Shown here one piece after another: positions 5,007 to 10,180 of a stretch of DNA of 32,696 nucleotides. Every line of letters begins with the position of its first letter. Positions within the stretch are counted from its first letter, which is position 1. The notes below the pieces were generated by a model. The model searched no databases. It had not been told where the DNA came from and saw only the letters and a program-made list of their open reading frames with translations. The position numbers and the translations under genes are program-made. Origin of the DNA: a virus; the IMG/VR virus record IMGVR_UViG_3300042875_000447, positions 1 to 32,696 of that record; one strand, 5' to 3'.

Positions 5007-5029
5007 GTTCGAAGTTTGTTACTTCGAAC
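5007..5029. promoter_or_regulatory. Operator: inverted repeat GTTCGAAG/CTTCGAAC
   Basis: GTTCGAAG (5007-5014) and CTTCGAAC (5022-5029) form a perfect 8-bp inverted repeat, each half itself centred on TTCGAA. It lies just downstream of the minus-strand promoter at 5036-5063, where a bound repressor would block elongation or initiation. The same TTCGAA core recurs at 7647-7658 and 7678-7684. Confidence 0.65.
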
Positions 5030-5035
5030 AGGTGT

Positions 5036-5063
5036 ATATTAACGTTCGTGTTCGAAATGTCAA
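5036..5063 (-). promoter_or_regulatory. Sigma70-type promoter for the 4972-to-2830 early genes, overlapped by operators
   Basis: On the minus strand the -35 is TTGACA (5058-5063), the spacer is 16 nt, and the -10 is TAATAT (5036-5041). A TTCGAAC half-site sits in the spacer (5050-5057). A TATCAAAGTTCGAA site lies just upstream of -35 (5066-5079). This layout points to control by the repressor that acts at about 7.65-7.72 kb. Confidence 0.65.
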
Positions 5064-5065
5064 TA

Positions 5066-5079
5066 TATCAAAGTTCGAA
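5066..5079. promoter_or_regulatory. Operator copy TATCAAAGTTCGAA (site A)
   Basis: This 14-mer recurs exactly at 7642-7655, and its first 13 bases recur with one change at 9492-9504 inside another promoter. The three copies sit next to the three main early promoters, so they are probably bound by one regulator. Confidence 0.65.
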
Positions 5080-5121: not shown

Positions 5122-5314
5122 TTTTCTCAGATTTTTCTCAAGTGGTCTTTTCTCAAGCCATTCTCAAGAGGCTTTGAGAATTCTCAAGAAGTTTGTAAGT
5201 CTTTGACTGGTAACATTCTCAACTTTTCTCAAGCCATTCTCAGACCACTTTTCTCAAGCTCAAGGGGGTATATATATATCCCTTGAGAATTGAACCTGAG
5301 AACCAATTTGAGAA
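5122..5314. other. Iteron-like cluster of TTCTCAAG, candidate replication origin
   Basis: Direct copies of TTCTCA(A)G or close variants start at 5124, 5135, 5150, 5161, 5181, 5216, 5226, 5237 and 5251, and inverted copies lie at 5172, 5282, 5296 and 5308. A 19-bp block, TTTTCTCAAGCCATTCTCA, occurs twice (5148-5166 and 5224-5242). At 5259-5287 CTCAAGGG and CCCTTGAG flank an alternating TA tract that would melt easily. The cluster lies in a non-coding gap directly after the primase-helicase stop codon. Repeated short sites plus an AT tract next to a replication initiator gene is the usual form of an iteron origin. Confidence 0.65.
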
Positions 5315-5321
5315 TGGATCC

Positions 5322-7292
5322 TTAGTCGGTTTCAGGAGGAATCGCATAGACGGCAATCGTTTTGCCTGTGAAGGTTTCTTTTTGGATTTCAAGGATAACG
5401 TTCTCTGCGACCATCTCTTTAATCACCCGATAGACTGTTTTGTCCGAGTGCCCTTTTTCAGATAGCGCGTCCACCAAGGTTTTGCGGGTCGGCTCAGCGC
5501 CGGGATATCGGCGCAGGTATGCGGCAATCGCGTCTGCGGCACGACCTGAGGCAGACTTGCTTTTAGAATCACCATCCTCGGCGTGAGCGGAAGAATACTC
5601 CCATCCACATTCACCCTGACGGCCTTGGATCACTGGCAAGGCAAATCTATTCCACCTAGCCTTTACGGACTTGATGGTGATGCTCTGTTCGTCGTGGTCG
5701 TCTGCTTCCATGCGGATAACATGGTCACAAGTCCGGCCCATCGCTCGTCCCCATGTCTCGCCCTGGCTGTTCAAGTGGCCGACCAGAACAACAGCCACGT
5801 TCATTTCGCGAGCCAGTTCACGAAGTGGTGATGCGATTTTGGCGACCTCCTGCGGATCCACCAGAGGTCTTGAGGAAGCGGCCATCAGGGTGTCGATCAC
5901 CACCAGGCCAATCTTGTATCGCTCACACCAAAGGCGAATGATTGCGATGGTTTTGGGATCATCCAGATTCGTAAAACCATACGGATCGTTCTTCGGTCCC
6001 GTGAAGATCACGTTCTCTGGGTCGATCCCAAATGACTCGCTACACATCGCGACCTGGTCCCAGTGACTGTCAGCAGCGACAAAAAGAATCTTTGAATCAA
6101 TGTCCATGGAAATGCTCGTGCCATCAGGCCACTTCAGATCATTCGACCACCTTCGACAAAGATCCATAAGCCATCGCGTTTTACCAGTCCCTTCTTTACC
6201 TTCGACCAGGTGCAATCCACGTTTGACAAACCAGCCAACATTGGTTTCTGGGTTGCCCCAAAGCCAAGTGCGTTCTTTCATGAGATCAAGAATGTCTCGT
6301 GCGTTGGAAGCGTCCGGCATGCCTTCAAAGAATTCCATGGGCACAGGCTCAACTGATAGTTGTGGAGCAGCTGCTCCGTTGGCCTTGGCGATTTGGATGA
6401 GACTTCCAAACCGGATCTGCTTATCACCGTCAGTCCGTTTGAACGATCTCACCTTGACTCCACATTCGCCATCAACGTGCTTGTCATGACGTGCGGACCA
6501 TTCCTCCCAAAGTTCAGCACCCTCTTCGCCAAACTTGTGACTTAGCGCCATGCCGACAGCCAACCATTTGTCATAGTCGGCAAGTTCAGTATCCAGATAC
6601 CCTTGAGCAAGTACCGTTTTCGCCCATTCGTAATCGCTGGAGACATTGCCGATGACTTTCGACGGTTCATCCTTTGCCTTCTCTGGTCGAGTGAGTGCAC
6701 GCAAGATGGCTTGCTCTGCCGATTCAGGCAACGGGATTGGCTCCATAGGGATGGATATCCGTTTGCCTTCGCTTGGAGCACAGGCAACTTGACTCCCTTT
6801 GTCCGCCAATCCCACAAAGATTTCGATTGCGTCTCCTGACGGAAGATAAATCTTCAGTTTGCCTTCACGGTTCCAAGCCTTCATGATCGAGTCTGTGACC
6901 ACAAACCAGACGTGAGCGCCCCCCTCAGTTCTGGACACCATCGAACGTGGCCAGTCGTCGGACCCAAACAAAAGCTGTGCCGCCTCTTTCCATGCGGTCG
7001 GTAATCGCCTGGTATCCTTATCCTGAGTGTCAACGTCAATCACCACATGCCCTACCGGCTTGCAACCAATGCCAACGTTGACTCCGTTTTGAAGGTACCT
7101 GACCAGCCGATCCCTCCACTCGTCAGTCGCGACCTTTTGCCAGGCTTCACCGGCACCAGCCATTGGACGCTTGATTTTGCCCTTCTTATCCTCGCCGATA
7201 ACGAGAGGAAGCACGCCAATAGACACAAGCGCCTCGAACGCTGCAAACAAGTCGTTGCGAGCGCAGGCGTCAAAGTAATCTGGCCACGACAT
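5322..7292 (-). CDS. Primase-polymerase / RepA-DnaB-like helicase fusion (656 aa)
   Basis: The protein joins primer synthesis and DNA unwinding for phage replication. Residues 1-180 form a prim-pol domain: IDVD (D86, D88) for metal binding, GGAHVWF with H127, and GIGCKP before them. Residues about 225-275 (WAKTVLAQGYLD through LWEEWSARHD) resemble a PriCT-type linker. Residues 345-545 are a RecA-like ATPase with Walker A GKEGTGKT (365-372), Walker B GLVVID (462-467) and VVLVGHLNS (501-509). The last 80 residues look like a winged helix (TRKTLVDALSEKGHSDKTVYRVIKEM). The gene ends 8 nt from the iteron-like cluster, which its C-terminus may recognise. Start at 7292 has only 4 nt from the previous stop codon. 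Confidence 0.9.
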   Translation of the reverse strand: MSWPDYFDACARNDLFAAFEALVSIGVLPLVIGEDKKGKIKRPMAGAGEAWQKVATDEWRDRLVRYLQNGVNVGIGCKPVGHVVIDVDTQDKDTRRLPTAWKEAAQLLFGSDDWPRSMVSRTEGGAHVWFVVTDSIMKAWNREGKLKIYLPSGDAIEIFVGLADKGSQVACAPSEGKRISIPMEPIPLPESAEQAILRALTRPEKAKDEPSKVIGNVSSDYEWAKTVLAQGYLDTELADYDKWLAVGMALSHKFGEEGAELWEEWSARHDKHVDGECGVKVRSFKRTDGDKQIRFGSLIQIAKANGAAAPQLSVEPVPMEFFEGMPDASNARDILDLMKERTWLWGNPETNVGWFVKRGLHLVEGKEGTGKTRWLMDLCRRWSNDLKWPDGTSISMDIDSKILFVAADSHWDQVAMCSESFGIDPENVIFTGPKNDPYGFTNLDDPKTIAIIRLWCERYKIGLVVIDTLMAASSRPLVDPQEVAKIASPLRELAREMNVAVVLVGHLNSQGETWGRAMGRTCDHVIRMEADDHDEQSITIKSVKARWNRFALPVIQGRQGECGWEYSSAHAEDGDSKSKSASGRAADAIAAYLRRYPGAEPTRKTLVDALSEKGHSDKTVYRVIKEMVAENVILEIQKETFTGKTIAVYAIPPETD

Positions 7293-7296
7293 GGAT

Positions 7297-7440
7297 TCAG
7301 CCTTTCTCTAATTTTGAGAGAGCCTGAATCGCTTCTCGCTCTTCTTTATCGTAAGGGTCAATAAACCGCGGGCCAGGCTCATCGAGCTGGCCACGGACGA
7401 TGCCAAGTGGCAGTTCCCAAGTAAGTTTTTGTTGAGTCAT
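7297..7440 (-). CDS. Small hypothetical early protein (47 aa)
   Basis: The ATG at 7440 overlaps the stop of the RHH gene as ATGA, and the stop lies 4 nt before the primase-helicase start, so this small frame fits exactly between two coupled genes. The product begins MTQQKLTWELPLGIVRGQ and ends in a charged helix (YDKEEREAIQALSKLEKG). No family recognised. Existence is supported mainly by the tight coupling on both sides. Confidence 0.65.
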   Translation of the reverse strand: MTQQKLTWELPLGIVRGQLDEPGPRFIDPYDKEEREAIQALSKLEKG

Positions 7441-7607
7441 GACCTGGCCTTTTCTGCTTTGCGAGACTCAAGCCATTGGTTAACAATTTGATTCAAAAGA
7501 CGTGACCTGTTGTCACCTGTCTCTAACGCAGCTCGGCTAAACTTCAGCCAGGTGTCACGATCCCACCGCATTCCCTTGTTAACCTTTGGACAGTTTTTGA
7601 CAGCCAT
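7437..7607 (-). CDS. Ribbon-helix-helix (RHH) DNA-binding protein (56 aa), early operon
   Basis: The ATG at 7607 follows AAAGGAA. The pattern is that of a short MetJ/Arc/CopG-type protein: a strand (KGMRWDRDT), helix one (WLKFSRAALETG), a turn (DNRS) and helix two (RLLNQIVNQWLESRK). Such proteins act as dimers whose paired strand sits in the DNA major groove. It is the first gene of the minus-strand transcript that continues through the primase-helicase. It is divergent from a second RHH gene at 7756, with promoters and TTCGAA sites between them, a layout like a cI/cro pair. Which protein represses which promoter cannot be read from sequence. Confidence 0.75.
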   Translation of the reverse strand: MAVKNCPKVNKGMRWDRDTWLKFSRAALETGDNRSRLLNQIVNQWLESRKAEKARS

Positions 7608-7631
7608 TGAGTTCCTTTCTGTGATGTTTTC

Positions 7632-7718
7632 AAGTCCGAAGTATCAAAGTTCGAACTTACGAAGTATAAACGCCAAACTTCGAATTATCAATATCAAGAC
7701 TTTTCATAATGTCGAAAT
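7632..7718. promoter_or_regulatory. Operator cluster between the divergent RHH genes
   Basis: Sites in order are AAGTCCGAAG (7632-7641), TATCAAAGTTCGAA (7642-7655, overlapping the perfect palindrome AAGTTCGAACTT at 7647-7658), TTACGAAG (7658-7665), AACTTCGAATT (7676-7686) and GTCGAAAT (7711-7718). Several helical-turn-spaced half-sites like this are typical of cooperative RHH dimers. Confidence 0.7.
7663..7691 (-). promoter_or_regulatory. Sigma70-type promoter for the RHH/primase-helicase operon
   Basis: On the minus strand the -35 is TTGATA (7686-7691), the spacer is 17 nt, and the -10 is TATACT (7663-7668). An AACTTCGAATT operator (7676-7686) lies in the spacer and AAGTTCGAACTT (7647-7658) just downstream, so a bound repressor would cover the promoter. 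Confidence 0.65.
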
Positions 7719-7729
7719 ATTGATATAGT
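7701..7729 (+). promoter_or_regulatory. Probable promoter for the plus-strand RHH gene
   Basis: TTTTCA (7701-7706), a 17-nt spacer and TATAGT (7724-7729) stand upstream of the ATG at 7756. A GTCGAAAT half-site (7711-7718) lies in the spacer, and inverted TATCAATAT/ATATTGATA (7686-7694, 7717-7725) frame it. The -35 is weak, which would suit a regulated promoter. Confidence 0.45.
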
Positions 7730-7755
7730 GAAGATAGACACTTTTTGGAGGGTCT

Positions 7756-7995
7756 ATGATCAAACTAACGAACAAGTGGCGGGTGTCTGCCAGAGTGACA
7801 CCAGAACTAAACCGATCTCTAAACGATCTCGTTGATTGGCTTAAGGAATCGGATACGTTCAAGGTACGTGGTCGGTCAGCTCGTCGCGAACACGTAATCC
7901 AACTGGCCTTGCTTGACATCATAAGTCAGGACAAAGCCGAAGCGGCCAAACGGCTTGCTTCACACGTCAAGGAACTTGAAGCTCAGTGCGACTGA
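7756..7995 (+). CDS. Ribbon-helix-helix transcriptional regulator (79 aa), candidate lysogeny repressor
   Basis: The ATG at 7756 has GGAGGG 3 nt upstream. The sequence fits an RHH protein: strand WRVSARVTP, helix one ELNRSLNDLVDWLKE, a longer loop (SDTFKVRGRSA) and helix two RREHVIQLALLDIISQD, followed by a charged tail. It is the only regulator on the plus strand, lies directly upstream of attP and the integrase, and is divergent from the replication operon, the usual place of a phage repressor. I infer that it binds the TTCGAA sites in its own promoter and at about 5.0 and 9.5 kb. The opposite assignment, with the 7437-7607 protein as repressor, is possible. Confidence 0.8.
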   Translation: MIKLTNKWRVSARVTPELNRSLNDLVDWLKESDTFKVRGRSARREHVIQLALLDIISQDKAEAAKRLASHVKELEAQCD

Positions 7996-8052: not shown

Positions 8053-8094
8053 CTCTTAATCAGCGGGTTGATGGTTCGAGTCCATCAGGGGGCA
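8053..8094 (+). other. attP: Phage attachment site: 3' half of tRNA-Lys(CTT)
   Basis: The 42 nt contain the anticodon loop CTCTTAA (anticodon CTT at 8055-8057), the 3' anticodon strand TCAGC, a 5-nt variable loop, a perfect T arm (GATGG, loop TTCGAGT, CCATC), the acceptor 3' strand AGGGGGC and discriminator A at 8094. The bases before it do not pair as a 5' anticodon strand or acceptor (GCCCCCT is absent), so this is not a complete tRNA. Integrases often use tRNA 3' halves and restore the gene on insertion. The integrase starts 80 nt downstream. Confidence 0.8.
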
Positions 8095-8173: not shown

Positions 8174-9385
8174 ATGGTAGACTACCATTCTAACGAATTC
8201 TTTGAACTCATGGGACGCAAACGCAACTCCATACCAAGTTACATGTTACACAAGAAAACCGGCAGTGCTCGCACTTGCTGGGGTGATGTGACTGTCTACC
8301 TTGGCAAACATGGCACGCCTGAAAGCCTTGCCGCCTACCAGCAAACTCTGGCGCTCTTCTTTGCAACTGGGAAAATCAAACTTGAAAAGGATAGTTTGGT
8401 ATCTACCAAAGAACTCGTGGACGGGTTTTTAAAGTGGGTCAAAACTCAGCACGACTCGGAATCCACAGAACCACGAAACCACGAACTGGCGCTTCGTGGT
8501 GTTGTGGCTCTTTTTGGTGGCATCCCTGCCAAAGACTTTCGAGCACCTCAGATGACTGCTGTCAGAGATATGTGGATCCTCAAGGGCAACTCCGGCACAC
8601 CTTTAACACGTGGCGTGATCACCAAGTATCAGCGCTACGTTGTGAGGTGCTTTCGGTGGGGCGTTGCCACTGAGCGTATACCCGCATCGTCCTGGGACGC
8701 TCTGAGGGCGCTGGAGAAGTTGAAGAAGCGAAGGTCCGCAGCTCGTGAGCCTGAGCGGGTCAAGCCAGTCTGCTGGGAGCATGTTGTTGCAATTAAACCA
8801 CATGTCTCCAGACAGGTTTGGTCGATGGTCCTGCTGATGTGGCACACCGGCATGAGACCAGGTGAAGTGGTGCTGATCACCTGGCAGGATATCGACCGAT
8901 CCAAACCGGTCTGGATCTATTCGCCCAACAAACACAAAACAGAGTATCGCGACATCGAACGCCATATTGGCATCGGTAAGCAGGCGCAGGAAGTGCTACT
9001 CGAATGGATTGATCGACCACCAGATGTGCCGATCTTTTCACCCGCCCAGGCGGAAGCGGAGAGACACGCAATCTTGCGAGCGAACCGGAAGACACCAGTT
9101 CAGCCTTCTCAAACGCATCGCACCGTTGCCAAGCCTGCTAAGATCGCTGGCGATGCCTATAAAGCGTCCAGTTTCGGGAAGCGTGTTGGTGATGCTGCGG
9201 AAGCGGCTGGCTTGCCAAGGTGGTCGCCGAACCGAATCCGTCACTCGTTTGCCACACGAGTCAGATCAGAGATCGGCCTACATGCCGCCCAGGTCGCTTT
9301 GGGGCATCAACATGCGGATGTTACGCAAGTCTATGCGGAGAAGGATTTGGAGCTTGTGATTGAAGTTGCGGAGAAACTCGGATGA
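8174..9385 (+). CDS. int: Tyrosine-family phage integrase (403 aa)
   Basis: The enzyme recombines attP with the host tRNA-Lys gene. The start ATG has AAGGA upstream. Residues about 75-175 form a core-binding SAM-like domain, and residues 195-400 the catalytic domain: box I TGMRPGEV with R228, a lysine-bearing beta turn near 253-255, box II NRIRHSFATR with R356, LGH with H378, and the nucleophile Y387 in TQVYAEKD. The usual His of HxxR is Asn353 here, a variant I associate with planctomycete integrases. It lies 80 nt after the tRNA-Lys half-site and follows the RHH gene on the same strand. Length is normal for the family. Confidence 0.93.
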   Translation: MVDYHSNEFFELMGRKRNSIPSYMLHKKTGSARTCWGDVTVYLGKHGTPESLAAYQQTLALFFATGKIKLEKDSLVSTKELVDGFLKWVKTQHDSESTEPRNHELALRGVVALFGGIPAKDFRAPQMTAVRDMWILKGNSGTPLTRGVITKYQRYVVRCFRWGVATERIPASSWDALRALEKLKKRRSAAREPERVKPVCWEHVVAIKPHVSRQVWSMVLLMWHTGMRPGEVVLITWQDIDRSKPVWIYSPNKHKTEYRDIERHIGIGKQAQEVLLEWIDRPPDVPIFSPAQAEAERHAILRANRKTPVQPSQTHRTVAKPAKIAGDAYKASSFGKRVGDAAEAAGLPRWSPNRIRHSFATRVRSEIGLHAAQVALGHQHADVTQVYAEKDLELVIEVAEKLG

Positions 9386-9881: not shown

Positions 9882-10133
9882 ATGGCCGGATGGACAATAT
9901 CACTGAATTTCATGGGCTTCGGTTTGACTGTTGCCCAACAGCCTGAAGAGCAACAATGGATTCAACAGAGCCTGTCAAACGAGGCAGGGGGCGACCTAAG
10001 GTCGAGAAGACGCAAAGGGCCGAGCGTGTTTACAAGGTTGATGAAGCGCCGGGGCGAGCCATCCGGTTCGTCTTCTCGCTCTCAGCGGCAGACCGTGCAA
10101 AAATCAGCAGGGTGGCGAAGAAGAACGGCGTGA
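9882..10133 (+). CDS. Small hypothetical protein overlapping the AT-hook gene (83 aa)
   Basis: The ATG at 9882 has AAGGAGG (9867-9873) 8 nt upstream, one of the best ribosome sites in the window, so translation starts here with good support. The first 27 residues (MAGWTISLNFMGFGLTV and on) look like a natural protein; the rest is read in the alternative frame of the AT-hook gene and is low-complexity Arg/Ser-rich. Either the C-terminus is a genuine overprint, or a base error or frameshift near 9950 has joined the two frames. The AT-hook frame has a stop codon 12 nt before its own ATG, so it cannot be extended upstream without a shift. Confidence 0.4.
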   Translation: MAGWTISLNFMGFGLTVAQQPEEQQWIQQSLSNEAGGDLRSRRRKGPSVFTRLMKRRGEPSGSSSRSQRQTVQKSAGWRRRTA

Positions 10134-10180
10134 TGGATTCCGAGCAAGTCCGGCGGTGGATACGTGAAGCGCCAGAATAA
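9956..10180 (+). CDS. AT-hook DNA-binding protein (74 aa)
   Basis: The N-terminus carries KRGRGRPKVEK, a textbook AT-hook (GRGRP core) that binds the minor groove of AT-rich DNA. The remainder (VYKVDEAPGRAIRFVFSLSAADRAKISRVAKKNGVMDSEQVRRWIREAP) has an RHH-like pattern: a strand followed by two helices. Together this suggests a small DNA-binding regulator or nucleoid-type protein made from the 9482 promoter. The ATG at 9956 has GAAGAG upstream and lies inside the 9882 frame. It is the last plus-strand gene before the convergent structural operon. Confidence 0.75.
   Translation: MDSTEPVKRGRGRPKVEKTQRAERVYKVDEAPGRAIRFVFSLSAADRAKISRVAKKNGVMDSEQVRRWIREAPE

Follow-up and report, generated by a model that had tools for sequence, protein, structure and literature searches.

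In phage lambda, the immunity region (cI, cro, OR, OL) carries a divergent pair of a repressor and an early regulator with operators common to two promoters. A second operator set lies at another early promoter, the region is exchanged as a specificity block, and its regulators are helix-turn-helix proteins. Proteins of the RHH (MetJ/Arc) superfamily instead dimerise and place a two-stranded sheet in the major groove of DNA. The arc and mnt genes of Salmonella phage P22 also have a divergent layout and encode proteins of 53 and 82 aa. Mnt and Arc are both Arc-type RHH proteins (PMC10516654); within immI, Mnt represses arc and ant and Arc represses mnt, and immI, which is secondary, governs the antirepressor ant and acts on immC (PMC11016777). 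The cassette of mycobacteriophage BPs has the order integrase, attP/repressor and Cro-like gene, with repressor and integrase on one transcript and with attP inside the repressor gene, which is truncated upon integration (PMC4557955). In mycobacteriophages of Cluster A, immunity types arise through co-variation of the repressor with its operator motif, with up to 30 stoperators genome-wide (PMC6550527). RHH proteins also serve as plasmid regulators, as exemplified by ArtA, a master regulator of plasmid transfer (PMC6540685). No RHH-based primary phage switch with block-exchanged types was reported in the open-licence papers that we surveyed.

The window analysed here is the whole 32,696-base record IMGVR_UViG_3300042875_000447 from an uncultured virus, whose portal, terminase, head protease and major head proteins are of the tailed-phage type. 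Our overall interpretation, which we regard as likely, is that the source virus is a temperate tailed phage of bacteria and that the cassette between its replication and integration genes is its immunity (lysis-lysogeny) module. The initial annotation had described two small ORFs transcribed away from each other, with replication genes on one side and attP and integrase on the other, and this layout was borne out. Leftward of a 148-bp spacer lie L, a 47-aa ORF and a primase-helicase gene, and rightward lie R, the 3' half of a tRNA (attP) and a tyrosine integrase gene, as follows.

5322–7292, minus strand: primase-helicase (domain matches to Prim-Pol, PriCT_2 and AAA_25), downstream of P_L1
7297–7440, minus strand: 47-aa ORF downstream of L, conserved and not allele-typed; left border of the exchanged block
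7437–7607, minus strand: left regulator (L), ORF of 56 aa, RHH-like; heads the leftward early operon, with a role predicted to be Cro/Arc-like
7608–7755: L–R divergent control region, the 148-bp spacer
7756–7995, plus strand: right regulator (R), ORF of 79 aa, the putative immunity repressor; candidate RHH-like fold
8053–8094, plus strand: attP, a tRNA-like 3' half, probably of tRNA-Lys(CTT); outside the exchanged block, on its right
8174–9385, plus strand: tyrosine integrase (Phage_integrase, 5e-18)

The half tRNA lies between R and the integrase in the contigs read, even where the integrases differ. Neither a complete tRNA (ARAGORN) nor an RNA family (Rfam) was found in the window, as expected because attP holds half a tRNA. 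When bacterial genomes were scanned for a related prophage, the sole match was distant, a helicase fragment from an Anaerolinea MAG, and we judged it uninformative.

The two regulators differ in how closely they resemble RHH proteins. L is well supported as a member of the RHH (MetJ/Arc) superfamily by its pattern and predicted fold, in which an N-terminal strand is followed by two helices. Its AF2 model (pLDDT 76.7; a monomer prediction, as is that of R) has helices at residues 17–30 and 34–55, and its top Foldseek matches in the PDB are mostly RHH structures, namely ParG, MatP, MazE, Arc, CopASO, ParD, PutA and CopG (TM 0.5–0.7). Owing to the shortness of L, these matches have weak E-values, none better than 0.2. 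Profile searches with L matched CopG and 56B (E 0.03–0.05), and the allelic left proteins of types D and E described below matched phrog_582, an Arc-like repressor (2e-6 and 4e-7). The AF2 model of R (pLDDT 82.5) has confidently predicted helices at residues 16–32, 44–56 and 60–77 and a strand-compatible N terminus, and the sequence pattern fits a strand-helix-long loop-helix order, like that of RHH proteins except that the loop is longer. The best PDB match of R was Reg576, a weak one (E 4.6, probability 0.11), and its model matched well a viral model of unknown function (TM 0.79). No RHH family was above the cut-off when R was searched by sequence, and profiles of the right proteins found no RHH protein in the PDB apart from a weak match to MazE4 (E 0.35). 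An RHH fold is plausible for R from its predicted element order. Hence, of the earlier proposal that both proteins are RHH regulators, the part concerning L is upheld by pattern and by the structure matches of its model, whereas R gave no convincing match in sequence or in predicted structure. A profile comparison of L with R (probability 2%) left common descent unsupported. Searches of Pfam and PHROGs returned no family match for either window protein, family searches detected no helix-turn-helix family in L or R, and no sequence homologues of the two were found in annotated phages.

The spacer and a region 2.6 kb away carry the putative operators and promoters listed here.

5008–5013: remote operator TTCGAA, exact word
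5023–5028: remote operator TTCGAA, exact word
5036–5063, minus strand: remote leftward promoter P_L2, TTGACA-16-TAATAT
5051–5056: remote operator TTCGAA, exact word, in the P_L2 spacer
5074–5079: remote operator TTCGAA, exact word, just upstream of the P_L2 -35
7635–7640: operator-like site TCCGAA, within one mismatch of TTCGAA
7650–7655: operator site TTCGAA, exact word, inside AAGTTCGAACTT
7658–7663: operator-like site TACGAA, which reaches the P_L1 -10
7663–7691, minus strand: leftward promoter P_L1, TTGATA-17-TATACT, sigma-70-like
7679–7684: operator site TTCGAA, exact word, in the P_L1 spacer
7701–7729, plus strand: rightward promoter P_R, TTTTCA-17-TATAGT with TG before the -10, sigma-70-like
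7711–7716: operator-like site GTCGAA, in the P_R spacer

The five TTCGAA-like sites and two promoters that had been noted between L and R are all present, and the sites alone are modest against shuffled sequence. Within one mismatch of TTCGAA, five sites were observed in the spacer, where its dinucleotide shuffles would give 1.98 (p 0.027), and two exact words were observed against 0.19 expected (p 0.014). Taken alone, this excess in an AT-rich spacer is barely above the shuffles and is suggestive only. What makes the sites convincing is a second cluster at 5008–5079, overlooked in the initial annotation, in which four exact TTCGAA words lie just beyond the helicase gene at its 3' end and over the leftward promoter P_L2. 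All six exact occurrences of the word in the 32.7-kb window fall inside two clusters (7650–7684 and 5008–5079), an arrangement that arose in none of 200,000 random placements. P_L1, P_L2 and P_R each hold a TTCGAA site between the -35 and the -10, that of P_R with one mismatch. Leftward sigma-70-like promoters are present in all seven cassettes and in most of the remote sites tested.

To compare the locus with its relatives, about 20 related contigs were collected, most of them metagenome fragments. A single-sequence scan of viral contigs with L gave no match, and the relatives were therefore reached through R, the helicase and the integrase. Relatives of R showed 97, 66 and 65% identity. The related contigs carry different L/R pairs at the same position, forming at least seven allele types: A (the window), B, C, D, E, F and G. 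L, the spacer and R are swapped as one block, and the flanking attP, integrase and helicase sequences can remain 90–100% identical. Between the window and types C and F, the attP flank is identical at 167 of 167 aligned bases, the integrase is ~96–97% identical at the DNA level and the 47-aa ORF ~93–97%, whereas L, the spacer and R are unalignable and give chance-length matches only. The N-terminal part of the helicase is 93–98% identical to that of some type B and C contigs. In binned identity against one type B contig (L007), the helicase matched at 95–98% from 5700 to 7292, nothing matched in the cassette, and the remote site was also replaced. Conserved flanks around an unalignable cassette are thus the mark of a specificity module whose exchange has fixed boundaries.

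The remote region differs with cassette type, although a largely conservable helicase gene intervenes. When the k-mers common to the cassette spacer and the remote region were counted for six types, the true pairing was the best of all 720 at k = 6, 7, 8 and 9. The iteron region adjoining the remote site, used as a control, gave no co-variation signal (528 of 720 pairings were equally good). In a leave-one-out assignment, the remote site pointed to the correct type in all 15 contigs having a second member of their own type; type C is a single contig and lies outside this assignment. A further contig (L061) combines an F-like L/R pair (71–74%) with a different helicase of 838 aa, and by-eye comparison its remote region resembles the F remote site. 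Co-variation cannot tell whether L or R binds the operators because the two genes swap together.

The orphan genes found downstream of some cassettes concern R alone. In IMGVR_UViG_3300032232_001065, the contig's own type E pair is followed in the same direction by R_F and R_A, each 97% identical to the F or A protein; the two overlap by four bases and their frames are intact. In IMGVR_UViG_3300027712_000186, a new type G R is followed by R_D. Neither carrying contig has the L partners of its extra R genes, and operator clusters matching the extra types are absent from the carrying loci read. The extra R genes are under purifying selection: two have dN/dS of about 0.05 and 0.08, and the third shows seven silent changes and none at the amino-acid level. 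They look retained, whether acquired or left from earlier replacements, and such spare repressors probably block rival viruses. The extra genes might instead be functionless scars of repeated cassette replacement, a sub-question within the overall interpretation rather than a rival to it. Their position, with the resident R on one side and attP on the other, is where a replacement entering upstream would leave the old R, but the intact frames, the four-base overlap and a dN/dS far below 1 speak against scars, and very recent orphaning could mimic these features. We consider scars possible, though on the unlikely side. It is mainly because orphan copies exist for R alone that we give the immunity role to R.

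Taken as a whole, the region likely represents an exchangeable lambda-like immunity module, in which R would be the prophage and superinfection repressor, L a Cro- or Arc-like early regulator, and the two operator clusters, 2.6 kb apart, their shared targets. The sequences themselves show the gene order, sites, promoter matches, block exchange, co-varying sites and orphan R genes under purifying selection; DNA binding, the assignment of proteins to sites, repression, immunity and the antagonism of R by L we infer. In the free phage, P_R would give R and, before integration, would read on through attP into the integrase. P_L1 would give L, the 47-aa protein and the primase-helicase, and P_L2 would give the next early genes. 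L, as the first early product, would bind the same control region and lower P_R, favouring the lytic route. Integration at the tRNA would part the integrase from R and so take the integrase off the R transcript. In the prophage, R would occupy both clusters, closing P_L1 and P_L2, and on matching operators it would also stop infecting phages of the same operator type. Specificity would be held only by L, R and the two operator sets, so phages could swap these jointly to escape immunity, and prophages would profit from extra R genes against other types. Block replacement, the co-varying remote operator and the orphan R genes lend strong support to the earlier suggestion of a lysis-lysogeny switch. 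A broader proposal, that primary immunity consists wholly of RHH proteins with two operator clusters around a replication gene, seven or more exchangeable specificities and stacked orphan repressors acting as a multi-type defence against rival phages, is put forward tentatively.

The roles of the two proteins could be reversed, with L as the operator-binding immunity repressor and R as a linked integration helper, for instance a directionality factor or a regulator of the integrase. Of the two, L is more clearly an RHH protein and R adjoins attP and the integrase, but L heads an operon toward replication, which would be odd for a repressor that maintains the prophage. Moreover, types A, B, C and F have nearly the same integrase and attP with unrelated or distant R proteins, which argues against R as an integrase partner, and orphan copies are known for R only; we find the reversed assignment improbable. 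It is also very unlikely that the pair is a secondary immunity system like P22 immI, with another repressor elsewhere governing lysogeny: no antirepressor or CI-like repressor was found among the window proteins searched, the L side leads straight to the gene for replication, and each of the two early leftward promoters carries operators. Such a system would account for a size and layout resembling arc/mnt (53 and 82 aa), and some window ORFs without a known function could encode the other repressor. Since most contigs are fragments, a further regulator may lie elsewhere. Another reading is a plasmid-type module with an RHH regulator, serving copy number, partition or toxin-antitoxin function: ParG/omega, CopG and antitoxins are typical RHH cases, and the L models match ParG, CopG and MazE. 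However, the pair is adjoined by an integrase and attP, the neighbours searched include no ParA or toxin partner, and R has no toxin family match above the cut-off, making a plasmid-type module highly improbable.

The lambda-like module preferred here resembles lambda in its sequence anatomy, with divergent regulators, operators common to the two promoters between them, a further operator set of the same specificity at another early promoter and block exchange among relatives. It differs in that no helix-turn-helix family of the CI/Cro kind was found in L or R, because of which the locus is not filed as a lambdoid immunity region but only as one working alike, and in that a helicase gene, mostly not allele-typed, separates the remote operators from the cassette. 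As in P22 immI, two small divergent regulators of similar size lie in a phage immunity region, here a predicted one. Unlike immI, the pair adjoins replication and integrase genes and has a second operator cluster, and no ant gene was found among the window proteins searched; the L operon runs on to the 47-aa ORF and the primase-helicase. A switch of two RHH proteins had been called uncommon; Mnt and Arc provide a precedent, though in a secondary system. The gene order and a predicted shared repressor/integrase transcript are as in BPs, whereas attP here follows an intact R, which ends at 7995, with the tRNA half beginning at about 8053. Block replacement with two operator clusters contrasts with the gradual divergence of Cluster A. 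As predicted small regulators over promoters, RHH-like for L and plausibly so for R, the pair recalls the plasmid regulators CopG, ArtA, omega and Reg576, but those do not serve phage immunity, and to our knowledge they include no divergent allelic pair with exchange.

The types together form a natural set of at least seven very small repressor/operator specificities in near-constant backgrounds, with both operator sites replaced in step. Such a set would allow tests of the origin and spread of immunity types, of RHH proteins as drivers of a primary lysogeny switch, and of prophage protection by stacked orphan repressors against several rival types.

Several features of the flanking genes were also observed. 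The 47-aa ORF has no match to known families in Pfam or PHROGs, and its pattern WELPLGxxRGxLxEPGPxxxDP is kept in nearly all relatives of any immunity type. Four contigs (L010, L011, L016 and L022) carry an optional ORF of 199–231 aa (MNAIPTHYNGINFRSRLEAKWARFFD...) in the early operon between the 47-aa ORF and the helicase; its 231-aa version matched no Pfam family. In a type A relative (L004:3150–5535), an N6/N4 DNA methylase and a SNF2/ResIII-like helicase separate the 47-aa ORF from the replication helicase. Beyond the integrase, a small ORF of the window (9956–10180, plus strand) has an RGRPK stretch that resembles an AT-hook, its C terminus is RHH/HTH-like, and a similar ORF in contig L003 (7526–7963) gave a weak RHH_1 match (E 0.0023). 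An iteron-like TTCTCAA array at 5135–5314, beside the 3' end of the helicase gene, contains 10 of the 15 exact copies in the window and is probably the replication origin. The iteron word in relatives (TTCTCA, AGTCCCA or AGTTCCA) tracks the helicase C-terminal region and not immunity type, and in L061:2180–2380 GTGTCCAC repeats adjoin the different 838-aa helicase and form a further iteron type.
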